Origin: Allomesorhizobium camelthorni
GTDB taxonomy: Bacteria; Pseudomonadota; Alphaproteobacteria; Rhizobiales; Rhizobiaceae
Direction: 5' to 3'
Length of the DNA stretch: 64,000 bases
Assembly (NCBI RefSeq): GCF_011045125.1
Contig: NZ_JAAKZF010000009.1
Span: 62,001 to 126,000 of the forward strand
The translations under genes were made by a program, and so were the position numbers. Every line of letters begins with the position of its first letter. Within the stretch, counting starts at the first letter, position 1. Of the stretch, positions 42,028 to 63,131 are shown in pieces. Under the pieces are notes generated by a model. The model did no database searches. It was not told the origin of the DNA and was given only the letters and a program-made list of their open reading frames with translations.

Positions 42028-42202
42028 AGGCTGGCCGCCGGCCGGCGGAGAGGGCGGGAGCGGCAGGCGCCACGGCCGCGACGGTGCATTTCATCGATTT
42101 CGCATTGCATTGGTTCCTCCTGGATGGTGTTCGTTTTCCGGAGGTGTGTCGCGCGGCGGCGCGAAACGGTTCACGGGCCGGCCAAAGCCGCGCGGCAGAC
42201 AA

Positions 42203-42231
42203 AAACCCCGCCGGCTGGGCCGGCGGGGTTT
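42203..42231 (-). terminator. Intrinsic terminator of the large secreted-protein operon
   Basis: A perfect 12-base stem, AAACCCCGCCGG (42203-42214) with CCGGCGGGGTTT (42220-42231), encloses a five-base loop. Read on the minus strand it is followed by a run of five T. It lies 24 bases after the stop codon of the 1212-residue protein gene. Confidence 0.85.
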
Positions 42232-42254: not shown

Positions 42255-45200
42255 CTATTGAACCGGCTTCTGGTTCTGCTGCTCGCGCCGGGGGAGGATC
42301 TTTCTCAACGTATCCGGATTGATCCGGATGTTGGGCTGAGTGGGTTGCGTCACCTTCCGGCAGTTCGGAGGCGTGCCAACGGTGCCGCGCGGGCAACGGA
42401 GCGGCTGGACCTCCACCTTGCGGCAGTTCGGCAGCGTGCCGATCGTTCCGCGTGGGCAACTGAGCGGCTGGACGGTGACGCACCGTCCGTTGCGCAGCGT
42501 TGTGCCTTTCGGGCACTCGACCGTCGTCTGCCGGCACTGGCCACGCACCAGGCGCGTGCCGCGCGGGCAGATGCAGCGGCCGTCCTGGGTCCGGATCTGG
42601 CCGGGCAGGAGCGTGCACTGGTGGACCGGCGGCACGTCCTTGACGCAGCGGTTGTTGCGCAGCTCGGTTCCGCGTGGGCAGATGCAGCGCCCGTCCTGCG
42701 TCCGGATCTGGCCGGGCAGCAGCGTGCACTGGCGGACCGGCGGTACGTCCCTGACGCAGCGGTTGTTGCGCAGCTCGGTTCCACGCGGGCAGATGCAGCG
42801 ACCGTCCTGGGTCCGGATCTGGCCGGGCAGCAGCGTGCACTGGCGCACGGGCGGAACGTCCCTGACGCAGCGGTTGTTGCGCAACTCGGTCCCACGCGGG
42901 CAGATGCAGCGTCCGTCCTGTGTCCGGATTTGTCCGGGCAACAAGTTGCACTGTTGCGGCTGCGGTTTGCGCGGTTTCGGCGTCGGGGTCGGCGTGGTGC
43001 CCTGGTCGCCCGTGCACCGGCCATTGCGGAAGGTCGTCCCTTCCGGGCAGACGCAGCGGCCGGCATTGTTCATCACGAACCCTTCCGAGCACTGATCCTT
43101 GGGCTGTTCCGGCTTGGAGATCGTGAACGGATGGCAGGCATATTGGCCTTCCTCGGGCGAGCCCTCGACGAGCGACTGGCCCTCCGAAAGACCGCCGCCA
43201 TTGCGCACCGGCGTGTCGGGGCTGAGCACCGCCACGCAGTTGCGGCCGTTGATCGGGCCGTTCTGGTTGTCGAAGCGGCCGTCGTCCGGGATCACCACGG
43301 TGACCTGGTGGACCCTGGCTTCGCCCGCTCCGAGCGAGAGGTCGGCGACGCAGGAGATGGGCAGCGTCGTCGGCTCCGGCGCGCAGCCGAAGGGCGGGAC
43401 TATCTCGGCGATCTCGACGCCTTCGAGACGGCCGAGACCTTCGACGCCGATTGCGTCGCCGATCCGCACCGGCCCGTTGAACGCCGTGTCGCTGTCGTTG
43501 CGGATGGTGACCTCGAACGTGCAGGGCTCGCCGACGCGGCACTCGCGGTCGCCGGTCTTCTCGACCCTGATGCTCGAGCCGCCCTGATCGCAGGCTTCGC
43601 CGATCGGATAGACGATGTCGTCTCCCGGTGCGGGCCCGTACGAGGCGCGGGCGCAGTTCTCGAACCGCTCGTTCGGCGAGACGTTCACCGTCACATCGAA
43701 ATGGCGGCTCGTTCCGGGTGTCATCACCGCGCCCGGGATCTGGCACGACAGCGTGTCGGCCGGAACCGGTCCGCAGCTCCATTCCGCGCCGTCAGGGGTG
43801 ACGGTTTGGATCTGGACGGGCGTGCCGGCGCCGATCAGTTCGGCCGCGTCATTGACCCGGACCGGGCCCGAAGGCGCGGTGGTGCCGAGGCTGATGACGG
43901 TTATGCGGCAGGTATATCCCGCAGCGCCGGCCACCGCTTCGCAGGTCTTGGTGATGCGGAGCGTCGGCTTGCCCGGATCGCGGCGGGGGATGCGCGCCTT
44001 GGCGCATGCCTTGTTGTTGGTGAGATCGCTCTCATCGGCAACGGGCAGCACTTCGGCGCAGTTCTCGAGGAGGTCGGCGGGGAAATCGTCGCCGACGATC
44101 GCCCTGACGCCAAGCGGGATGAAAGCGCCTGGAGCCAGCATCACGTCCGGATGGTCGCAGCGGAACCGCCCGGCCACTTCCGGCACGCACGACCATGGCG
44201 GCGACGGCACGAAGTCGGACGAAGCCGGCACGTTGACCGGATATTCATCGATGACGGTGATCGGGCCGTTGATGGTCTCGGCGCCGGTGTTGATGACGTT
44301 GATGATGAAGAAGCAGACGCCGTCGGGCGAACAGACCGGAGTGCGGGCCTGCTTGGTGATGCCGAGATCGACCTTCTTCTCCACCGGCGGCCTGCAATCC
44401 CGGTCGTTGGGACGGCAGAGCCTGATTGCCGCGCAGGCCCTGTCGTTCGCCTGCGAGCCGAACAGCTCCTTCTCGCTCGCCGGATAATCATATGCGGCGC
44501 AGTTGCGGATGTAGCGGGCGCCCCAGCCGGCACCCGGCTTGAAGCCGAGCTTCAGGTCGATGGATTCGCCAGGATTGAGCGTGGTCGCAGGATGCTCGCA
44601 GCTCATCGGGCTGGTCAGCGGGGCGCAGACCCATGGCGGGTTCGGGCCGCTGTCGATAGTTGCATTGCCGGGCAGCGTGACCTCGTCCAGCACGATCTTC
44701 CCGTTATAGGGCGCGTCGCCGACATTGGAGACGGTGATGGTGAAGTTGCAGCCGCCTTCGATCGTGCAGGTCGCCACGTCCGCGCGCTTCTCTATCCTGA
44801 TGTCGGGTTCGCCGCGTTCGTCCGGGCAGTCGAGATCGTCGGGGATGACGAGGTCGACGGTCTGCGTGCAGCAGAGGCCGACGCCTTCTTCCGGCCCGGC
44901 ATAGGTTTCGATGCCGGTGACGATCAGGTGCACGACGTCGCCCGGCAACGCGCCGGTGATCGTCCAGGCGAGCACGCCGCCGCCGGCCGGCACGAGTTGC
45001 GCCGCGGGCGCCACCATGATGCCCGGCGTCGTGGTGCGGAGCTGCACCCACTTGCCGGCCATGTCGGCGCCGACAGGCATGTTGTAGATGAAGGCGCCGC
45101 CGCCAGGCACGCAGTCGACATCGCCGGTCTCGACCTCGAAACAGGCCTCGTCGCCGCCCGGGGGCGGTGGCGGAGGCGGTTCGCAATCGGTCACGTCGAT

Positions 45201-45893
45201 GCCGATTTTCGTCGGCTTGCCGGTCAGGAAATCGCCATCGTCCGGCAATGCCGGGTCATGCGAGGGGATTTCGATCGCGGCAGCGCCCGGGCGGGCGAGC
45301 GTGACGAAACCCTGATTGTCGACCGCGGTCGCCGCCGGGAAGGCGGCGTGGTCGATTTTCGCCGTGATGATCACGTCGAAATAGCGCCGGTCCAGAAGGC
45401 CGTCGCCATCGAGGTCTGTTCCCGAGAGGCGGAAATCCTCGATCGTCACCGTGTCGTCGGGCGAACCCGTCGTCGAGACGGAAGCCGCCGGTGCGGGTCC
45501 GCCCGCAGAGTCGGTAATGTCGCCGTTTATCTCGACATTGACCACTGAAAGCCCGGCCGGAAGCTGGTCGCGGAAATCCATGCGGATCTGCTTCAGCTCG
45601 TTGCCGAATTTTTCGCTGTTGAGCACTTCCGGTTCGCCCTCCGCGCCGAAGCGCAGACGGTATTTGACGTATTCGCAGCTTATCTGCTTGCCGATCTTCT
45701 CGAAGAACGGCTCGACGCGCTCGCGCTCCTGAATTGGTCCATCCGGCCTGTCGAGTTCGATGAGCGGCCTGTCGTCGGCCGGAACCAGAAGCGGCGTCTG
45801 GGCGGCGGCGGGTGCGATGCCGAAGGAGGCAAACGCCAGCCCGGCCGCCATCAGCCAGCGCGACGCGCGCGCGGCGATGGTTGCAGGTTTCAT
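42255..45893 (-). CDS. Large secreted protein with DUF11-like domains and Cys-rich tandem repeats
   Basis: A 1212-residue exported protein of unknown function. Residues 1-31 are a signal peptide (cleavage after APAAA). Residues 35-235 are a unique domain. A polyproline linker (238-245) leads to a domain at 250-350 with C-x(8)-C and a CC pair that is also present in the upstream gene's product. Four DUF11/CARDB-like beta domains follow at about 363-500, 506-640, 643-765 and 774-895, each with paired cysteines. The C-terminus holds EGF-like Cys repeats: one at 934-960, then four 37-residue copies of QCTLLPGQIRTQDGRCICPR type (981-1122), and two PLxCPRGTxGTxPNCRKV units. No anchor or transmembrane end is seen. 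Start ATG 45893 has GGAG six bases upstream. Confidence 0.75.
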   Translation of the reverse strand: MKPATIAARASRWLMAAGLAFASFGIAPAAAQTPLLVPADDRPLIELDRPDGPIQERERVEPFFEKIGKQISCEYVKYRLRFGAEGEPEVLNSEKFGNELKQIRMDFRDQLPAGLSVVNVEINGDITDSAGGPAPAASVSTTGSPDDTVTIEDFRLSGTDLDGDGLLDRRYFDVIITAKIDHAAFPAATAVDNQGFVTLARPGAAAIEIPSHDPALPDDGDFLTGKPTKIGIDVTDCEPPPPPPPGGDEACFEVETGDVDCVPGGGAFIYNMPVGADMAGKWVQLRTTTPGIMVAPAAQLVPAGGGVLAWTITGALPGDVVHLIVTGIETYAGPEEGVGLCCTQTVDLVIPDDLDCPDERGEPDIRIEKRADVATCTIEGGCNFTITVSNVGDAPYNGKIVLDEVTLPGNATIDSGPNPPWVCAPLTSPMSCEHPATTLNPGESIDLKLGFKPGAGWGARYIRNCAAYDYPASEKELFGSQANDRACAAIRLCRPNDRDCRPPVEKKVDLGITKQARTPVCSPDGVCFFIINVINTGAETINGPITVIDEYPVNVPASSDFVPSPPWSCVPEVAGRFRCDHPDVMLAPGAFIPLGVRAIVGDDFPADLLENCAEVLPVADESDLTNNKACAKARIPRRDPGKPTLRITKTCEAVAGAAGYTCRITVISLGTTAPSGPVRVNDAAELIGAGTPVQIQTVTPDGAEWSCGPVPADTLSCQIPGAVMTPGTSRHFDVTVNVSPNERFENCARASYGPAPGDDIVYPIGEACDQGGSSIRVEKTGDRECRVGEPCTFEVTIRNDSDTAFNGPVRIGDAIGVEGLGRLEGVEIAEIVPPFGCAPEPTTLPISCVADLSLGAGEARVHQVTVVIPDDGRFDNQNGPINGRNCVAVLSPDTPVRNGGGLSEGQSLVEGSPEEGQYACHPFTISKPEQPKDQCSEGFVMNNAGRCVCPEGTTFRNGRCTGDQGTTPTPTPKPRKPQPQQCNLLPGQIRTQDGRCICPRGTELRNNRCVRDVPPVRQCTLLPGQIRTQDGRCICPRGTELRNNRCVRDVPPVRQCTLLPGQIRTQDGRCICPRGTELRNNRCVKDVPPVHQCTLLPGQIRTQDGRCICPRGTRLVRGQCRQTTVECPKGTTLRNGRCVTVQPLSCPRGTIGTLPNCRKVEVQPLRCPRGTVGTPPNCRKVTQPTQPNIRINPDTLRKILPRREQQNQKPVQ
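42528..42953 (-). repeat. Four in-frame 111-base tandem repeats (three complete, last one divergent)
   Basis: The repeats encode residues 981-1122 of the large secreted protein. Each unit carries four cysteines in the pattern C-x(13)-C-x-C-x(10)-C. The first three units are almost identical in protein and DNA, which points to recent duplication; the fourth changes after ICPRGT. Confidence 0.88.
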
Positions 45894-45966
45894 GATCGTC
45901 TCCATGACATCGGTTTCAGTGCGCCCCGCCAGGGGAAGATGTGAGAACATGGTCATCTCTCCCTCC

Positions 45967-47940
45967 TCACGGCGCGCAGCTTGCGGGTGGCGTTTCGAGC
46001 GTCACCGTGACTTTGCAGCACGGGTAGTAGCCGCCCCGTTCGGCATCGGCTTGCCTGTAGAAGCAGAGCCCGACATCGACATTCTCGCCGGGGAAGTGCC
46101 CGGTAATGCCCAATGTGAACGGAGCGCCTGCAGGTTGCGTCTGCTGCAGGGGCGAAACGCCGATCCCCGGTGTCCTGGAGTCGGCCTTGATCGTGTCGCC
46201 GCCGATGCCGGCGACGTCGCGCACGTAAAGATCGGCCTCGAGCCCGGCCGGCGTGCAGAAATACTCGACCGCATCGAGATCGATGCAGGGCGGAATGTCG
46301 TCCCCCGGCTGCGGGAAGATCGGCGGCCAGATGGGCGGCGGGTAGCCGCCGCCCGGAACCGGCTCGTAATAGCCGGCGCGGCCTTCGCAGGGCCGCCAGA
46401 CTTCCACGTCGCCGACATGGCCCTCGACTTCCGGGTCTTCGAAAAATCCGTCGAAATCGACGAACCAACTGCCGAATGGCGGCTCGTTCTTCGGGCGCAC
46501 CAACGGCGTCGGCGTGATCTGCACGCCGTGCACGGCTAGCGGCCCGCCCGGGATGAGCTGCTCTTCGAGCGCCGGATTGTCGCGCAGCTTATCGCCGGTC
46601 TTCACCAGCGTATCGGCGCAGGCATTGGTGTTGATGAAGCCCTGCGCGTCATAGCCATATTGCAGGTCGATGCCGCCGGCGCTCTGGCGGTGGCCTTCGG
46701 GGAAGCCGACCGCATATTCCTCCGGCGCTTCCACCCAGATCGATTCCGTCGCCGGATCGTCGGGGCTTTCGCGCCAATAGCGCAGCACGACGCCGTCGCC
46801 GGAATCGGCGAAGCGGCTATAGTCGTAGCGGTTGTCGATCTCGCCGCGCTGGGCGAGATACATGAAGCCGCGCGTGTCGAAGGCGATGTCGGTCACCGCC
46901 AGCTCCTCGGGAGCGGCGACTGTCAGCTCCCAGCGCGGATCGGCAGCGAACGTCCCATCGCGGGCGATGCCGACCGACCAGATTTCCGCCTTCTCGCCGA
47001 CGGCGTAGTAGAGCCGGCCGCCATGCACCTGGACGCCCCAGACGCGGCGTTCGTCCTGCGTGTAACCCCAGGTGTCGGGGTCCTCGCTGTCGAAGGCAGC
47101 GCCCTCTATGTCCATCACCGCGCCGTCGTCGGCGACGGCGTCGAGGCCGCGCGCCGGCCGTCCGGCAACGCCGTGATCGAAGATGTCGATCAGGGCGCCG
47201 TCGGCGCCGATGCGGTGGATCAGGCCCGTGTCGAGGTCGGAAGCGAAGAACTGCCGGTGCGCCTTGTCGAAGGCGACGTTGCCGATGCCCGGCCCGCTAT
47301 TGCTGTCGATGTCGGCAAACAGCGAGACCTGGCCGGTCAGCCCGTCGATCTTCCAGATCGTGCCGGGCCCGCCGCCATTCTCCTCGGCGAACTGGCCTTC
47401 CATGAAGGTCGCGCCTTCCGCGCCGCGGCGCTGGCGTTCCGGCCGGCCGTCATCGTCCTCGTCGGGCGTGACGATGCGGACGCCGTGCAGCGAGCTTGCG
47501 GCCGCATAGAGGTTCGGCACGCCGCTCGAGATGCCGTCGCGAACGCCGTCGTCATAGGCGAGGCCGAAAACCTGGCCGATCTGGCCGGCCATCACCTCAA
47601 AGGGTTGCGGCGTATAGACGAGCTGCCCGGAAGGCGGTCCGCCGAGCGCATTGACGTCGAAAACGCGCAAGGTTGCGCGGTCGAGGTCGATGAAGGTTTC
47701 GTCGACCGGGTCGACGCCGGGCGGCAGTCCCTCGTCGAAATTGGGAATGATGGTGCCGGAAAATCCGGTCGCCGCCATCGATCCGGGATGGATGATCTGC
47801 GTTTCCTGCGCCCTGCCGGGGCCGGCGAACCAGAGCCCGGCCGTCAGCGCCAGCGCGACGATTGCGCTCGTCGAGGCCAGTGCGTTGCGGCGGCGATGGT
47901 GAAGGGCGTGCAGGATGGATGTTCCGCGGACATGCGGCAT
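45967..47940 (-). CDS. Secreted beta-propeller-like protein with Cys-bearing C-terminal domain
   Basis: A 657-residue exported protein of unknown function. Residues 1-45 look like a long signal peptide with an arginine-rich start (HHRRRNALA) and end at GRAQ. Residues 50-520 have repeated propeller-like strands (VFGLAYDDGVRD, GTIWKIDGLTGQVSLFADID, FASDLDTGLIHRIGADG, VTDIAFDTRGFMYLAQRG), as in NHL/YVTN or SMP-30-like proteins. Residues 550-657 form a domain that matches part of the next gene's product. It is the first gene of a two-gene operon, with a 73-base gap to the next. Start is ATG 47940 with GGGAG seven bases upstream; the longer open frame crosses the promoter and is rejected. Confidence 0.75.
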   Translation of the reverse strand: MPHVRGTSILHALHHRRRNALASTSAIVALALTAGLWFAGPGRAQETQIIHPGSMAATGFSGTIIPNFDEGLPPGVDPVDETFIDLDRATLRVFDVNALGGPPSGQLVYTPQPFEVMAGQIGQVFGLAYDDGVRDGISSGVPNLYAAASSLHGVRIVTPDEDDDGRPERQRRGAEGATFMEGQFAEENGGGPGTIWKIDGLTGQVSLFADIDSNSGPGIGNVAFDKAHRQFFASDLDTGLIHRIGADGALIDIFDHGVAGRPARGLDAVADDGAVMDIEGAAFDSEDPDTWGYTQDERRVWGVQVHGGRLYYAVGEKAEIWSVGIARDGTFAADPRWELTVAAPEELAVTDIAFDTRGFMYLAQRGEIDNRYDYSRFADSGDGVVLRYWRESPDDPATESIWVEAPEEYAVGFPEGHRQSAGGIDLQYGYDAQGFINTNACADTLVKTGDKLRDNPALEEQLIPGGPLAVHGVQITPTPLVRPKNEPPFGSWFVDFDGFFEDPEVEGHVGDVEVWRPCEGRAGYYEPVPGGGYPPPIWPPIFPQPGDDIPPCIDLDAVEYFCTPAGLEADLYVRDVAGIGGDTIKADSRTPGIGVSPLQQTQPAGAPFTLGITGHFPGENVDVGLCFYRQADAERGGYYPCCKVTVTLETPPASCAP

Positions 47941-48260: not shown

Positions 48261-48872
48261 TCAGCGGTCCGACAGCGCGAGCCGCAGCCCAAGCGCCGCG
48301 AAGGCGCCGGCAAAGCCGCGCCGCAGCCAGGCAAGCACGCTGGGACTCGAAATGACGTAGCGCCTTGTCGCCGAGGCGAACGCGCCGTAGCCGACGAAGA
48401 CGATGAAGGTCAGCGCCATGAACACGCCCGCCAGCCCCAGCATGTAGGAGGTCGGGCTGGGCGTGTTCGCCGGCACGAATTGCGGCAGGAAGGCCAGGAA
48501 GAACAGCGACAGCTTGGGGTTGAGAATGTTCAGCATGAAGCCGCTGGCGATGATCTTTGCCGGCGAGCGCGTGGAGTGGCGTTCGGAAACCTGCAGCGCG
48601 CCGCCGTCCCGCATCACCCCCCAGGCCATGTAGAACAGGTAGGCGACGCCGAGATATTTGACGATCTGGAAAGCCAGCGCGCTGGTGTGCAGCAGCGCCG
48701 CCAGCCCGGCTATGCTGGCCGCGATATGCGGGACGATGCCGAGCGTACAGCCGATTGCCGCGAGTACGCTGGCGCTCCAGCCCCGGCTCAGCCCGAAGGC
48801 CAGCGTGTAGAGCACGCCGGTGCCCGGCAGGAGAATGACGATGATCGAGGTCAGCAGATATTCGGGGGTCAT
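48261..48872 (-). CDS. LysE/RhtB-family amino-acid exporter
   Basis: A 203-residue inner-membrane exporter with about six spans. The opening ILLPGTGVLYTLAFGLSRGW is a variant of the family's PGP motif, and GFMLNILNPKLSLFFLAFLP is the conserved third-span signature. Members export amino acids such as lysine, threonine or homoserine lactone; the specificity here is unknown. Start is ATG 48872. It is on the same strand as the AraC regulator gene 369 bases upstream, which may control it. Confidence 0.88.
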   Translation of the reverse strand: MTPEYLLTSIIVILLPGTGVLYTLAFGLSRGWSASVLAAIGCTLGIVPHIAASIAGLAALLHTSALAFQIVKYLGVAYLFYMAWGVMRDGGALQVSERHSTRSPAKIIASGFMLNILNPKLSLFFLAFLPQFVPANTPSPTSYMLGLAGVFMALTFIVFVGYGAFASATRRYVISSPSVLAWLRRGFAGAFAALGLRLALSDR

Positions 48873-49241
48873 GATGGCGCTCCAGGTTCGGGATTTTCGG
48901 AACCGCAGGAAAGCCGATCGGGAGGAGCTGGTCTTGAACGAAATTGCAGTGCTTTTCGGATGGATGAAATCGCTAACCGACGCGCGTCGTAGCGCTGCAA
49001 ATCAGGTGCGAGCGGACGTTTCGCCGGGTGTCCATACCTGAGGGAATCCATGCCTCGCCACATCGGAAGTCAAAGGCGGGGCAGAACAGGCGGCCACTGA
49101 GCTTCGCCCAAACATGTTCCATATGCGATCGCCAGCCTGCGAACGGGGAGGAGATTCTGGCAAGGATGTTCGAAAGAGAGGTTGACTGGTGGTCGTGGGG
49201 CTGCCGATCACTCTACCGGCCCATTGGCATAGCCACCAAAA
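48873..49241. other. Gene-free stretch between the AraC regulator and LysE exporter genes
   Basis: No reading frame with coding character, no repeat of the families seen elsewhere and no clear terminator were found in these 369 bases. A promoter and control site for the exporter gene would be expected here but none stood out. Confidence 0.5.
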
Positions 49242-50087
49242 TCAGCCGACCGCCTCGGCATAAGCGCCGGGCGAAATCCCATAGGTCCGCACGAACATTC
49301 GGGTCATGTGGCTCTGGTCGGCGAAGCCGCTTTCAAGGGCGGCCTGCGCCAACGGCCTGCCTTGCGCGATCAGCCGCCGCGCGGCCGCGATCCGGCGCTG
49401 GAGAATATAGGCATGTGCCGTAAGCCCGGTTGCCCTCACAAAACCGCGCAGCACCTGGAAGCGGCTGAGGCCGCTTTCGCGCGCCAAGTCGGCCAGCGTG
49501 ATCGCCGCCGCCGGATCGTCGTCGATCAGGCTGCGGGCGACGGAAATCGGTGCGGGCATCGATCGGTCCGGGACAAAACCGTTCCCGTCGCGCATGACCT
49601 CCGCCAGCAGCATCAGCATCGTTTCCTCGCGCGCGACCGACGCTTGCGCACCGGCCGGCGTCGTCGCTTCGTCTTCGGCGTCCTGCCTGCCTGCCGTCAT
49701 CGCCGAAAACAGCGCGCCGAAGCAGGCGGCGATCCGAGGGTCCCCGATGACCGGCCGGGTGAATTCGAACGTGCTCGTCCGGCCCTGGCTGATGTCGCGG
49801 GCGGCGTCGGCGATCAGCGGCGGGTCGAAATAGAGCATGCGCCAGGAGCGGCCGGCGTCGCCGATCGGCGCGCCGTCATGCACCTCGCCCGGATTGACGG
49901 TGATCGCGTCGCCGGGGCCGGCCTCCACCATGCCGCGGCCGCTAAGAGATTTCTGCGCGCCGCGATGGATGACGCCGATGCCGAACTGCTCGTGCGTATG
50001 GCGCGGAAATGTGTGGCGCGTTTCCGCTTCCACCGCGTCCACGCCGGCGATCGCGCACCGGAGCATTTTGAATTGGGCTCGTGCCAT
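49242..50087 (-). CDS. AraC-family transcriptional regulator
   Basis: A 281-residue regulator. The N-terminal half is a cupin-like AraC ligand domain (HTFPRHTHEQFGIGVIHRGA, VNPGEVHDGAPIGDAG). The C-terminal half has two HTH motifs, ITLADLARESGLSRFQVLRG and PLAQAALESGFADQSHMTRM, with the usual ending FVRTYGISPGAY. The context, upstream of a LysE exporter on the same strand, is common for regulators of amino-acid export. Start is ATG 50087 behind GGAGGAGG; the longer open frame lacks homology. Confidence 0.9.
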   Translation of the reverse strand: MARAQFKMLRCAIAGVDAVEAETRHTFPRHTHEQFGIGVIHRGAQKSLSGRGMVEAGPGDAITVNPGEVHDGAPIGDAGRSWRMLYFDPPLIADAARDISQGRTSTFEFTRPVIGDPRIAACFGALFSAMTAGRQDAEDEATTPAGAQASVAREETMLMLLAEVMRDGNGFVPDRSMPAPISVARSLIDDDPAAAITLADLARESGLSRFQVLRGFVRATGLTAHAYILQRRIAAARRLIAQGRPLAQAALESGFADQSHMTRMFVRTYGISPGAYAEAVG

Positions 50088-50184
50088 CTGGTCATGCCTC
50101 CTCCGGCAGTTTGCCTGCCCGTGCCATGAACCGCAACGGGAGGGGCGGTGTTGAAGCGCCAGGCGCATTGCAACCCCTGCCTAT

Positions 50185-50490: not shown

Positions 50491-51051
50491 ATGACGAACG
50501 ATACCGATCGTGACCTGGTCGGCCGCGTCGCCAAGGGCGACCGCGCTGCCGTGCGGCTTCTGTTCATGCGCCACCACGCGCGGGTCTACCGTTTCGTGGC
50601 GCGCCAGACGGGATCGGAAGCGATGGCGGACGACATAGCCAACGAAGTTTTTCTGGAGCTGTGGCGGCAGGCGCCGCGCTTCGAGGGCCGGTCGGAAGTC
50701 TCGACCTGGCTGCTGGGCATTGCCCGCTTCAAGGCGCTGTCGCATCTGCGCAAGAAAAGCGAGGCGTGGATCGACGATGACGACGCTGCCGCGATTGCAG
50801 ACAGCGCCGATACGCCGGAAGTGACGGTGATGAAGGAGAACAAGGCGGCGGCGCTCAGGCGCATGGTCGACGCGCTGCCCGAGGAGCATCGCACGGTGGT
50901 CGACCTCGCCTATTATCACGGCAAGTCGGTCAGCGAGATCGGCGAGATCCTGTCTATACCGGTGGCGACGGTGAAGACCCGGATGTTTTATGCCCGCAAG
51001 AAGCTGGGCGAGGCGCTGAAAGCCGCCGGTCACGACAGGGGTTGGCCATGA
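50491..51051 (+). CDS. ECF-family RNA polymerase sigma factor
   Basis: A 186-residue group IV sigma factor. Region 2 covers residues 20-90 (FVARQTGSEAMADDIANEVF, FEGRSEVSTWLLGIARFKAL), and region 4 covers 120-175 (LPEEHRTVVDLAYYHGKSVS, IPVATVKTRMFYARKKL). No additional C-terminal domain is present. It overlaps the next gene, a membrane anti-sigma candidate, by four bases (ATGA), so the two are coupled. The third gene is a secreted subtilase. Start is ATG 50491. The signal sensed is unknown. Confidence 0.92.
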   Translation: MTNDTDRDLVGRVAKGDRAAVRLLFMRHHARVYRFVARQTGSEAMADDIANEVFLELWRQAPRFEGRSEVSTWLLGIARFKALSHLRKKSEAWIDDDDAAAIADSADTPEVTVMKENKAAALRRMVDALPEEHRTVVDLAYYHGKSVSEIGEILSIPVATVKTRMFYARKKLGEALKAAGHDRGWP

Positions 51052-51716
51052 GCGCCGGGGAAAACATGTCGCGCCGCGACGAACTGGAAGCGCTGCTGCC
51101 TTTCTACCTGAACGGCACGCTGGAAGGCGACGACCTCGAAGCCGTCGAGGAGTGGCTGGCCTCAGACCCTGAGGCGGCGGTGGCGCTCGCCGAAGCCGAC
51201 GCGGAATTTGCCGGCGCGGTCGCCGCCAACGAGGCGCTGCGGCCTCCCGCCGATGCGCTGAGCCGCTTTTCGAAGGCGCTGGAGGCGGAAGCCGTGCCCG
51301 CGAGGTCGCAGGCGGGAAAATCCTGGCTCGCCAACGTCTGGGAACGGATCGCCGGCCTGCCGGCGGGGCTCGCCTGGGCAACGGCCGCCGCGGCGGTCAT
51401 GCTGCTTGTCGTGCAGACGGCGCTCGACACCGGCAGGCAGGGCGGCGATTTCGAGATCGCCGGAGAGCAAGGCGGCGTCGGCGCGATGCCGTTCGCCTTC
51501 GTCAAGTTCAGGCCGGAGGCGGAGATGGCCGACATCTCGGCCTTCCTCATGGAAAACGGCGCGGCCATCGCCGGTGGGCCGACGGCGGGCGGCGTGTTCC
51601 GCATCGCCATCCCCGCGAAGACCGCCGCCGACTATGACAGGCTGGTCGGCCTTATTGCCGCCCAGCCCTTTGCCGAGACTGTTTCCGAAGGCAGGAAACC
51701 GTCCAATGGCGGGTAA
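51048..51716 (+). CDS. Membrane anti-sigma factor candidate with propeptide-like periplasmic domain
   Basis: A 222-residue single-pass membrane protein. Residues 9-60 (LEALLPFYLNGTL, AVEEWLASDPEAAVAL) have the shape of the anti-sigma N-terminal domain, but the usual zinc-binding His/Cys set is absent. A transmembrane helix is at about 104-124. Residues 147-212 are periplasmic and read like a subtilisin-type propeptide or I9 inhibitor (FVKFRPEAEMADISAFLMEN, AAIAGGPTAGGVFRIAIP). Start is ATG 51048, within the sigma stop. Its stop lies inside the start of the protease gene (11-base overlap). The anti-sigma role is inferred from position and layout. Confidence 0.7.
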   Translation: MSAGENMSRRDELEALLPFYLNGTLEGDDLEAVEEWLASDPEAAVALAEADAEFAGAVAANEALRPPADALSRFSKALEAEAVPARSQAGKSWLANVWERIAGLPAGLAWATAAAAVMLLVVQTALDTGRQGGDFEIAGEQGGVGAMPFAFVKFRPEAEMADISAFLMENGAAIAGGPTAGGVFRIAIPAKTAADYDRLVGLIAAQPFAETVSEGRKPSNGG

Positions 51717-53127
51717 GGCATTCAGGATTGCGGCGTTTTCGGCTGCCATGCTTGCGGGCGTGGCTCCGGCTTTGGCGCAGACCAACGACCCTTCCGGCGC
51801 GCTCCCGACCGATCGGATAACCGTTCAGCCTGAAGGCACGGATCCGGACGATGATCGCGGCGGCCAAAATGCCGTGCTGCTGCCGGATTTGCTGTTCGAC
51901 CTGTTTCCCAATCCCGCCGGCCGCGAGCCGGCTCAGCCGGGCAGCGGCGCGGGACAGGCGCCGCCCTCAAACACGCAAGCGGGAGGACCGCCGCCTGTGC
52001 CGGCGCGAAATCCGCTCGGCGCGGCCGCTGCCACTGCTGCGCGCCAGCCGCTCGCCGCCCCGGCGCAGGCGATTGCCGGCGAGTTCGTCCCCGACGAGGT
52101 GCTGGTGACCATCGAAGGCGACGGCGCGGTCGTCCAGGACATCGCGGCGGATTTCGGGCTCGAGATACGCTCGCAGCGGCTTTCGACCCTGCTCGGCCTG
52201 ACCGTCGTGCGCTTCGGCATTCCCGACGGCCGGCCGGTCGGCGTCGTGCTGGCCCAACTTGCCGCCGACGGCCGCGCGCAGGGGCGCGTGCCCAACCACG
52301 TCTACGACCTCCAGCAGGCGCCGGCAGTCATCAACTACGCCTTCCAGCGCATCGCGCTGGATTCCGCCGCGGCCAGCGGCAAGGATGTGCGCATCGCCGT
52401 CATCGACACTGCGGTGGACGAGACGCATCCGGCGTTGAAAGGCGTCGTTGCCGAGATTTTCGACGCCATGCCGGAGGTCGAGATCGCCTCGCGCGACCAC
52501 GGCACTTCGGTCGCCGGGCTGATCGCCGGCACGGGGCCGTTTCGCGGCATGGCGCCCGGATCGAGCATCTACCATGCCCGTGCGTTCGAGAACGGCAAGT
52601 CAACCATGGACACGATCCTGAGCGCGCTCGACTGGGCGGCAGGCAGGGATGTGCGCATCATCAATATGAGCTTCGTCGGGCCGCGCAACGAATTGCTGGA
52701 GACCGCCTGCCGCAATGCGCGGGCGCAAAACATGGTGCTGATCGCGGCGGCCGGCAATAACGGCCCGAAAGCGCCGTTCGGCTATCCCGCCGCCTATGCC
52801 GGCGTGACCGCCGTGACCGCAACCGACGAGCAGGACCGGCTGATGCAGCAGGCCAATCGCGGGCCTTACGTCTATCTGTCGGCCCCCGGCGTCGACATGA
52901 TCGCGCCGGTCGGCGGCGGCTCGGACCTCGTCACCGGCACCTCCTTCGCCGCAGCGATCGTCTCGGGCGCGGTCGCCAATCTGATCCGCAGCAATCCCGA
53001 GCGCTCGGCCGACTGGATCGAGAAGGCGCTGGCCGAAACCGCCACCGATCTCGGCAGCGCCGGCCGCGACGGCGATTTCGGTTACGGCCTGCTCAACGCC
53101 AAGGCGGCGGATGCGGCGAAGGAATAG
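51706..53127 (+). CDS. Secreted S8 (subtilisin-like) serine protease
   Basis: A 473-residue exported protease. A signal peptide covers residues 1-24 (ends PALAQ). A proline/alanine-rich linker and a propeptide-like region (126-204) precede the catalytic domain. The triad is Asp-234 (AVIDTAVDETHP), His-265 (DHGTSVAGLIAG) and Ser-413 (GTSFAAAIVSG), with the oxyanion Asn-351 (AAAGNNG). No membrane anchor follows. It overlaps the anti-sigma candidate by 11 bases and is the last gene of the sigma operon. It could process extracellular targets or the anti-sigma itself. It is convergent with aglR, with only six bases between the stops. Confidence 0.9.
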   Translation: MAGKAFRIAAFSAAMLAGVAPALAQTNDPSGALPTDRITVQPEGTDPDDDRGGQNAVLLPDLLFDLFPNPAGREPAQPGSGAGQAPPSNTQAGGPPPVPARNPLGAAAATAARQPLAAPAQAIAGEFVPDEVLVTIEGDGAVVQDIAADFGLEIRSQRLSTLLGLTVVRFGIPDGRPVGVVLAQLAADGRAQGRVPNHVYDLQQAPAVINYAFQRIALDSAAASGKDVRIAVIDTAVDETHPALKGVVAEIFDAMPEVEIASRDHGTSVAGLIAGTGPFRGMAPGSSIYHARAFENGKSTMDTILSALDWAAGRDVRIINMSFVGPRNELLETACRNARAQNMVLIAAAGNNGPKAPFGYPAAYAGVTAVTATDEQDRLMQQANRGPYVYLSAPGVDMIAPVGGGSDLVTGTSFAAAIVSGAVANLIRSNPERSADWIEKALAETATDLGSAGRDGDFGYGLLNAKAADAAKE

Positions 53128-61217: not shown

Positions 61218-63131
61218 TCAGGCCACGCTCATTTGGCGTTCGGCCGCAGCTTCGGCGCTGACATCGGCGACTTCGCCCACAAGAAAGAGCTCGATCGCCT
61301 CGCCCCTGCCGCGCAGCCTGTGCCGCCCCGAGGGTATGACCTCGAAGCGTTCGTCGAGGCGCGACGCGGTCTCGGCCGAGATGGCGATCATGGTCTGGGC
61401 TTCGGGCGCCAGCGTCTTGCCCAGCCCCTGCAGCCTCTGGCTGACATTCACCGTGTCACCGATGATCGTATAGTTTACGCGGTCCGAAGCGCCGATATTG
61501 CCGACGATGACTGGGCCGGTATGGATGCCGATCCGCACCTTGAGGGCCGGCAGTCCCTCCAGCACTGCCGCCTTGTTGTCGGCTGCAAGATACTCCCTGA
61601 TCTGAGCGGCGGCGCGGACGGCCGCAGCGGCATGGCCCTTCAGCCGGTCGGGAGCGCCGAAGAATGCCATCATGCCGTCGCCGAGGAATTTGTCGACTGT
61701 GCCGCCATGCGCGTCCACGGCGCGGCACAGGATGGCGAAATGACGGTTCAAGAGCTTCGACACCGCCGCCGCGTCCAACTGCTCCGACAGCGCCGTGAAA
61801 TCGGCGATGTCGGTGAACATCACCGTGACGACCGTCTCACGCGGTTCGGCGATGCCGATCTCGCCAGTGCGCACCAGCTTGGCGACAAGTGAGCGCGGAA
61901 TGTAGGTGGAGAAGGCGCGCAGTCCGATCAGCATGGCATTGAAGGCTGACGCCTGATCGTCCAGTTCCTTGATCCGGCTGCGCGGCAGCGGAGCCACGCC
62001 GTCTAGATCGAAATCGGCGACTCGCGTCGCCTGTCCGGCGATCGCCTGTATGGGTCGCGAAAGGCGCCTGCCGAGTAGGATGGCGACGATCACCGCGGCG
62101 GCCATCGCGGCAAGCCCGAGCATGGCCGATCCCATGACACGCTCGATCTCGCTGCCGACCTGGCTGCCTTTGAAGTATGCGCCAATCGTCCAGGGCCGCT
62201 CGCCATAGCCAGGAATCTTGCGGGTGATGGCAACGTAGGCATTGTCGCCCCACCAGTCATCGTCCCCGCCATCGATATTTATTTCCGAAAGCTCGACATC
62301 GCGGGTGCGTCTGGCGTCGAACTGATCCTCTACCTTGCGAGTGGAATAGGTGGCCAGCACCGGGTCACCGAACGTCGCGAGCGGCATCAGCGGCGCCATG
62401 CCGTTCTTGCGCGCATCGGGTTGGGACAGGCGTTCGTCGGCAATGACGCGGTCCTCGCCATCAAGGATGAAGGCATGCGTTCCGAACCGCATCGAGAGGT
62501 CCCGCGTGATCTCGGAGAGCTTCTGCAGCTCGACCGCCGCGATCACCCAGCCTTGCGGTGCGGCCCCGCGAGAGAGCGGCGCCGACACATTGGCGTACAG
62601 GCCGTGCTCGTTGGCCACAAAGGATCCCCACAACAGCCGGTTGGTCTGGCGGCGTTGCTCCAGGGCGGCCAGCACCTGCGGCGATTTCTCGACCTCAGGC
62701 GGCAGAAGCTCGACCTTTCCGTCTGTATCGCGGGCGACGCCCCGGCAGATCATATCCGGCGTGCAGATCAGCATGGCGGTCGCGGGCTGGGCGGCCAAGA
62801 GTGCGCCCGAAAGAGCCGCCGACATAGCGTCATCGTCGTCGATCAGGAACTCGCCCTGCGCATAGAGCTTGGAGATGCCGTTCACGGCGCTTTCAGCCTG
62901 CTCCATCTCCGCGCGCAACAAATCCTCCATCGCATCGACGAGCAGGGTGGACTGCGCGCCGAGCAGGTCGAGTGTGTTGCGGATATTGGCGCCGACCGTC
63001 AGAGTCAGCACGCCGCCGATCGACAGGAAGACGAGCGTGCCGAAGCTGATCGCCATGATGGCCGCGACCGGCATGCGCCGCCACTTCTTGGCGGGGCGGA
63101 CCAGGCGCACCGGTTCATTCGACGAATCCAT
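61218..63131 (-). CDS. Membrane-bound class III adenylate/guanylate cyclase
   Basis: A 637-residue receptor-type cyclase. A transmembrane helix at 22-46 and another at 332-354 bracket a periplasmic sensor of about 285 residues (double-Cache-like). A HAMP linker (355-405, RRLSRPIQAIAGQATRVADF) leads to the cyclase domain at 433-600. The metal Asp residues are Asp-441 (FTDIADFT) and Asp-485 (KFLGDGMMAFFG), and IGIHTGPVIVGNIGASDRVN is the usual dimer motif. Start is ATG 63131; a longer GTG start lacks a ribosome site. It should convert an outside signal into cAMP or cGMP. The ligand is unknown. Confidence 0.88.
   Translation of the reverse strand: MDSSNEPVRLVRPAKKWRRMPVAAIMAISFGTLVFLSIGGVLTLTVGANIRNTLDLLGAQSTLLVDAMEDLLRAEMEQAESAVNGISKLYAQGEFLIDDDDAMSAALSGALLAAQPATAMLICTPDMICRGVARDTDGKVELLPPEVEKSPQVLAALEQRRQTNRLLWGSFVANEHGLYANVSAPLSRGAAPQGWVIAAVELQKLSEITRDLSMRFGTHAFILDGEDRVIADERLSQPDARKNGMAPLMPLATFGDPVLATYSTRKVEDQFDARRTRDVELSEINIDGGDDDWWGDNAYVAITRKIPGYGERPWTIGAYFKGSQVGSEIERVMGSAMLGLAAMAAAVIVAILLGRRLSRPIQAIAGQATRVADFDLDGVAPLPRSRIKELDDQASAFNAMLIGLRAFSTYIPRSLVAKLVRTGEIGIAEPRETVVTVMFTDIADFTALSEQLDAAAVSKLLNRHFAILCRAVDAHGGTVDKFLGDGMMAFFGAPDRLKGHAAAAVRAAAQIREYLAADNKAAVLEGLPALKVRIGIHTGPVIVGNIGASDRVNYTIIGDTVNVSQRLQGLGKTLAPEAQTMIAISAETASRLDERFEVIPSGRHRLRGRGEAIELFLVGEVADVSAEAAAERQMSVA

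Follow-up and report, generated by a model that had tools for sequence, protein, structure and literature searches.

What holds together two neighboring genes whose exported products carry copies of the same domain? The question is raised by a gene pair on the reverse strand of contig NZ_JAAKZF010000009.1 of Allomesorhizobium camelthorni, in a stretch of 64,000 nucleotides (positions 62,001 to 126,000) referred to here as the window. The upstream gene encodes protein B, which likely starts with a beta-propeller head, and the downstream gene encodes protein A, a long stalk of repeated domains; each carries one copy of the shared domain (SD), termed SD_B and SD_A, respectively. We favor, with some confidence, a two-subunit exported assembly in which the propeller head would be docked by SD_B to SD_A on the predicted isopeptide stalk. 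The two copies are one homologous domain, and in the loci scored here SD accompanies the two-gene form of the system.

A domain shared by two neighboring genes

The features of the pair, in coordinates of the window, are as follows.

45967..47940 (-): gene of protein B, 657 residues (signal peptide, probable beta-propeller, Pro-rich linker, SD_B)
46375..47820 (-): propeller region (B residues ~41-522), in which the motif DxDxDGRPER is conserved
45970..46350 (-): SD_B (B-type, six cysteines), B residues 531-657, the C-terminal ~125 residues
42255..45956 (-): gene of protein A, 1,233 residues with 59 cysteines (signal peptide, DUF7929, SD_A, four DUF11/CLIPPER repeats, Cys-rich EB-like modules, Gln/Arg-rich tail)
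45189..45710 (-): DUF7929 (PF25551), A residues 83-256, Pfam E 4.4e-85, a predicted intramolecular isopeptide domain (K87/D130/N214)
44811..45188 (-): SD_A (A-type, five core cysteines), A residues 257-382, directly after DUF7929
43119..44801 (-): four DUF11/CLIPPER repeats (44418..44801, 43989..44366, 43575..43961, 43119..43571), PF01345 E 2.8e-13, with a K/D/N pattern in each
42345..43091 (-): Cys-rich EB-like modules, CPRGTxLRNNRC (PF01683 E 1.1e-4, under the family cut-off)
42201..42231 (-): Rho-independent terminator 3' of A, ~13-bp stem plus U5 tract, z -2.72

Profile comparison, which the original prediction had named as the test of its shared domain, aligned SD_A with SD_B (12 plus 12 sequences, hhalign) at a probability of 97.4% and an E value of 1.3e-11. 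In a search of its own genome, the only protein that B matched besides itself was A (E 3e-4, 34% identity over 114 residues), and the window SD_A, searched in related loci, matched the C-terminus of B proteins with a best E of 3e-9. In the 80 named loci, i.e., the best 80 of 248 relatives of B from a genome scan, single-sequence searches at a domain E below 1e-5 led from SD_A to B in 25 cases and from SD_B to A in none; since these matches are weak or partial, the relation of the two copies rests on the profiles. The conserved columns (two early cysteines, TPG, PG, CC, and the last cysteine) coincide with the residue blocks that had been picked out by eye. Structure prediction was run for both copies and gave eight strands in SD_A (AF2, mean pLDDT 76.2) and the same strand order in the SD_B part of the weak B model. 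A careful tree of 19 SD_A and 19 SD_B sequences separated the two types into reciprocally monophyletic groups (support 100/99, recovered in 99% of 200 bootstrap trees).

The fold of SD matched generic immunoglobulin-like (Ig-like) rows, with a best Z of 8.2 and many unrelated rows at 6-7; PapD and Caf1M, compared because of the donor-strand pilus proteins, scored about 6.5-7.7, the same level as the unrelated rows. Among 38 members scanned against Pfam and NCBIfam no convincing match turned up, and the sequence profile gave nothing better than E 0.037 in the PDB. Three candidates, a teneurin-like identity (that same PDB profile match, E 0.037), VERL (a single member, E 0.062), and a beta-lactamase model (a single member, E 0.081), were taken as chance. 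The domain had been called novel; within the Pfam, NCBIfam, and PDB searches the word fits SD, which lacks a convincing sequence match there, and it does not fit most of A, which consists of the known DUF7929 and DUF11/CLIPPER families.

The two genes had also been expected to be regular neighbors, and so they are. A lies directly downstream of B in all 80 named loci kept, with SD in both proteins. Genomes were sampled from the family (247), order (297), class (337), and phylum (299). In the family sample, the 20 genomes with DUF7929 are the same 20 that hold a full-length close B, and a 21st genome (G341) has a divergent pair. In the order sample DUF7929 was found in 22 genomes, with B directly upstream in 22 of 22 loci, B being broken by a TAG in one (L120) and, next to a run of N, split over two frames in another (L106). 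A narrow SD profile matched 7 of the 299 phylum genomes, two copies each, and a broader one matched 4 of the 337 class genomes, with two copies in three of them and one in G922. Beyond the order, both partners carry SD in the two-gene pairs of G1004 and G1015, and so does the B of G922, where the contig end cuts A. The propeller family is commoner than the SD pair and occurs in 89 of the 297 order genomes.

Both genes lie where the original prediction had placed them, and the terminator that it had assigned to the pair is real; a consensus terminator scan (7 sites versus 4.5 expected) listed only part of it. A has 1,233 residues if started at the ATG that follows the better ribosome-binding site, and 1,212 from the later ATG used previously. 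Only 10 bases separate the B stop codon from the first ATG of A, and they contain a good ribosome-binding site, so translation of B and A is probably coupled. Each protein starts with a Sec-type signal peptide as judged by eye, in line with the claim that both are exported; a Tat signal on B, also weighed by eye, was unconvincing. The window genome is Mesorhizobium-like; among the matches listed, the named sequence closest to B, with 97% identity, comes from Mesorhizobium alhagi. A PHROGs search gave no match.

Two-gene and one-gene architectures

The architecture of 110 propeller open reading frames (ORFs) was scored by the position of DUF11, with no use of SD; L101, L103, and hits above E 1e-45 were left out. 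All 40 loci with DUF11 in the next gene had SD in B and in A, while none of the 55 ORFs with DUF11 in the same ORF, and none of the 13 without detected DUF11, carried it. Both SDs are present in L120, the locus with the interrupted B, and L087 has SD in B and an A cut by the contig end. The broader SD profile found no match at E<0.1 in 71 such SD-less ORFs, one of them being the L120 fragment. A propeller tree of 92 rows, built with a quick method, shows six changes of the SD label, of which at least five fall on well-supported branches. On the tree by architecture (78 rows, also without the rows lacking detected DUF11 and without near-identical two-gene rows), SD and architecture each change six times.

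L091, nested among two-gene loci, has B up to residue 521 fused to A from residue 774, and the fusion is devoid of both SDs, DUF7929, and three DUF11 repeats. L281 holds a minimal pair (338-2862, -), an exported SD_B-only protein of 153 residues beside an exported SD_A-DUF11 protein of 707 residues; there is no propeller on its 3.9-kb contig, while another contig of this incomplete genome carries a propeller ORF whose layout is that of the one-gene proteins.

Many of the one-gene relatives run from the propeller through a linker and DUF11 repeats to Cys-rich, His/basic, or peptidoglycan-binding tails. The tails of four propellers without SD (L094, L097, L273, and L282) are very long and made of short His/Lys/Ser repeats such as SHLKTGSPHNKLQ, which possibly bind metal or polyanions. 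CBM_14 chitin-binding matches were seen in 2 of 68 one-gene tails and TIL matches in 4 of 68; both families are known mainly from animals.

Since SD occurs only in the two-gene form and is absent from the one-gene head-stalk proteins, we infer docking. B, a head ending in SD_B, and A, the stalk, would be exported separately. SD_A and SD_B could then be the halves of an old heterotypic docking pair that bind each other after export, and their docking would replace the peptide link between head and stalk. SD_A stands just before the DUF11 stalk; binding of SD_B would therefore place the propeller as it is placed in the fused relatives. The grounds for this proposal are the homology of the two SDs, their constant neighborhood, the confinement of SD to the two-gene form, the separate clades, and the domain make-up of the proteins; an extracellular location and a role in attachment are, like docking, inferred. 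The idea of the module as a joint thus holds insofar as SD is in both partners when they are split and missing when they are fused, with physical contact as its presumed counterpart.

Head, stalk, and the weighing of docking

In Pfam and NCBIfam, full-length B had no match at E<=1, and the window propeller region had none in Pfam at E<=0.1. A profile built from 51 propeller regions retrieved diisopropyl-fluorophosphatase (DFPase) from the PDB with an E value of 5e-4 (0.0093 for its best single stretch), and all its PDB matches at E<=0.013 were DFPases or engineered proteins aligned alike. At E<=0.1, two of the 51 members matched NHL and one SGL in Pfam; the weak Pfam matches of the members fall into eight families, five of which we take to be propeller families. 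The AF2 model of B is weak (mean pLDDT 47.5) and usable only for SD_B and parts of the propeller; in this low-confidence model residues 8-453 matched NHL and YWTD propellers at Z 14-15, the top match being the NHL propeller TRIM71 (Z 15.1, 222 residues aligned, root-mean-square deviation 3.7). Because of the DFPase profile match, the NHL/YWTD matches of the model, and the weak matches to propeller families, the head of B is likely a beta-propeller, as had been proposed. The same DFPase matches, the invariant polar residues of the family (e.g., DHG), and the peptidoglycan-binding domains of relatives would also suit a secreted enzyme (lactonase/phosphotriesterase-like, of the SMP-30/DFPase kind) on a wall-bound stalk in place of an adhesive head. 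We consider the enzyme unlikely, given that the DFPase match spans only about 100 residues and that binding propellers of the NHL/YWTD type top the structural list.

The stalk consists largely of known domains. DUF7929 in A scored 284.3 bits against a Pfam cut-off of 27. In the accessible part of an isopeptide-bond survey (PMC12617251), this family is among the domains predicted to form an intramolecular isopeptide bond, with Lys86, Asp129, and Asn213, and the spacings of the A triad, 43 and 84, are equal to those. Of 40 aligned rows, 36 retain the lysine, 37 the aspartate, and 35 the asparagine; by eye the triad is replaced in L227 and L229. DUF11 scored 50.6 bits against a cut-off of 24.6, with two stretches passing individually. 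In all four repeats, as assigned by eye, the Lys-Asp spacing is 33-35 and the Asp-Asn spacing 61-72, with the asparagine before a cysteine; the corresponding spacings are 33 and 58 in the DUF11 crystal structure 9IFR, according to the same part of PMC12617251, where the domain is renamed CLIPPER. Going by these residue patterns, A is a predicted rod of up to five stapled Ig-like domains, with SD_A between the first and the second. The EB-like region contains a 111-bp tandem array (42562..42940, 3.4 copies, 92% matches, TRF).

Where this rod would reside is a matter of two opposing sets of observations. Signal peptides of the Sec type only (by eye), the PG_binding_1 domain that 24 of 68 one-gene tails contain, and stretches resembling it that were picked out by eye in the A proteins of L227, L229, L248, and L281 would fit a periplasmic, peptidoglycan-bound scaffold that is not surface exposed. 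The window A, in contrast, had no peptidoglycan-binding match in the Pfam scan, and the accessible part of PMC12617251 describes isopeptide stalks as cell-surface features; we therefore hold the periplasmic scaffold to be doubtful. Since relatives carry peptidoglycan-binding domains, the surface location envisaged in the original prediction is itself plausible at most.

Several observations weigh against the docking proposal. Some SD rows sit on long branches of the SD tree, and the distance correlation between SD_A and SD_B (partial r 0.31) is not specific, that between SD_B and the region after SD_A being 0.58. The DUF11 profile used for scoring was built from the window repeats and their matches in the same loci, and the DUF11 model of Pfam itself reaches E<=0.001 in no more than 28 of the 68 one-gene tails. 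The propeller tree offers five independent pairs, all agreeing, and because they are only five the sign test gives no better than p 0.0625. The Pfam scan of A found no outer-membrane anchor, no secretion gene dedicated to the pair was noticed adjoining it, and the PG_binding_1 tails fit a periplasmic wall-bound location as well as the surface. Finally, SD could have been lost merely as a fusion junction. An ordinary Ig-like spacer, or a secretion or maturation module needed by each partner and lost collaterally in fusions, would agree with the generic fold of SD and with its location where a fusion would cut, as in L091, and is in our view improbable, since SD is kept in 0 of 55 one-gene proteins, forms two separate old subfamilies with one A-type and one B-type member per pair, and, were it a mere spacer, would not have had to be lost each time, A retaining other Ig-like spacers.

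The cysteines bear on how docked partners might be linked. They were counted in complete A proteins from 180 residues before SD_A to the end, in rows that are related by descent, so no probability is attached to the counts. Their number is odd (35 to 85) in 33 of 36 A proteins, the window A being included in the set, and even in L115 (22), L116 (12), and L281 (50); in L281, SD_A lacks one of the two cysteines that make up the CC pair. SD_A has a core of five cysteines, as read from the alignment, and SD_B has six in 40 of 41 B proteins; B as a whole contains eight in 40 of the 41 proteins, the exception having ten. Since the number in A is odd in 33 of 36, the counts suggest one unpaired cysteine in A, probably in SD_A. 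They look as if pairs had been added around one free cysteine. The even number in B speaks against a simple A-B disulfide, and the part of the original prediction in which disulfides hold the assembly together is not supported by these counts.

An associated sigma factor/subtilase cassette and the known relatives

A three-gene cassette lies divergently upstream of the pair.

50491..51051 (+): ECF (extracytoplasmic function) sigma factor, cassette gene 1 (PF04542, PF08281)
51042..51716 (+): presumed anti-sigma factor, cassette gene 2, no Pfam match, named from its position between sigma factor and subtilase
51706..53127 (+): secreted S8 subtilase, cassette gene 3 (PF00082 E 2.1e-42), start inferred by eye

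The cassette is 2-3 kb off in the window and adjoins B in most other loci with a nearby cassette. Genes for a LysE translocator and an AraC regulator (48261..50168, -) stand between the pair and the cassette in the window, L069, and L070; they look like an insertion that, in the window genus, interrupts a divergent layout which is otherwise tight. A sigma factor or subtilase was found near the propeller in 23 of 121 SD loci versus 6 of 71 loci without SD; the 23 comprise 16 of 41 loci outside the named set and 7 of the 80 named ones, and some genomes are represented in both sets. In the family sample, 19 of the 247 genomes hold a close subtilase ortholog (>=59% identity), and every one of them also has a propeller, in the two-gene form in 18 and fused in one, even when the genes are far apart. 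The sigma factor, presumed anti-sigma factor, and subtilase genes were together in all 11 such loci that were retrieved. The cassette is not tied exclusively to the propeller: a distant cassette occurs in G415 (L295), a genome without a B match, and no close subtilase ortholog was found on the short contigs of G489 and G360, two of the 20 two-gene family genomes. Kinship among the genomes confounds the association, and one simple pattern tried for an ECF promoter gave no consistent site upstream of the propeller gene. The cassette probably belongs to the system as a regulator or processing protease.

More tentatively, with the balance slightly against it, SD_A and SD_B may be a new heterotypic docking family that splits stalked exported proteins into head and stalk in an alphaproteobacterial lineage, even without a propeller (L281), possibly with a reactive SD_A cysteine that links stalks and with the sigma/subtilase cassette controlling assembly. 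About six natural switches, in which SD is absent from the one-gene proteins examined and present in both two-gene partners, yield a specific and cheap prediction, namely, that SD_A binds SD_B. If true, this would provide a new small protein-protein connector, an assembly role for the propeller family seen in 89 of the 297 order genomes, and a context for DUF7929, a family so far without known function.

How does the pair compare with known systems? The stalk domains and the fibrillar layout are of known kinds; no description of the split head/stalk form or of the SD pair turned up in searches of an open-access library, and within the reach of those searches both appear to be new. Among propellers, the NHL, YWTD, and DFPase types come closest through the low-confidence model of B and the DFPase profile, whereas the window propeller itself belongs to no Pfam family at the threshold given above. 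Fibrillar adhesins, in the accessible part of PMC9210967, combine a head with a stalk of repeated Ig-like domains in one polypeptide, a layout that the one-gene relatives share. A has the signal peptide (by eye) and the repeated stalk of such proteins, while no known adhesive domain was matched in the propeller region and no known anchor was found in the window A; the present system, known from sequence, is made of two polypeptides instead of one. With the DUF7929 family of PMC12617251, in the part accessible, A shares domain and triad; the survey names the domain and, in that part, mentions neither the neighboring gene nor SD. Like the DUF11/CLIPPER proteins (PF01345, 9IFR, and the same part of PMC12617251), A is a long exported stalk with four repeats bearing the Lys/Asp/Asn pattern, but here the head comes from a gene of its own and is presumably joined to the stalk through SD.

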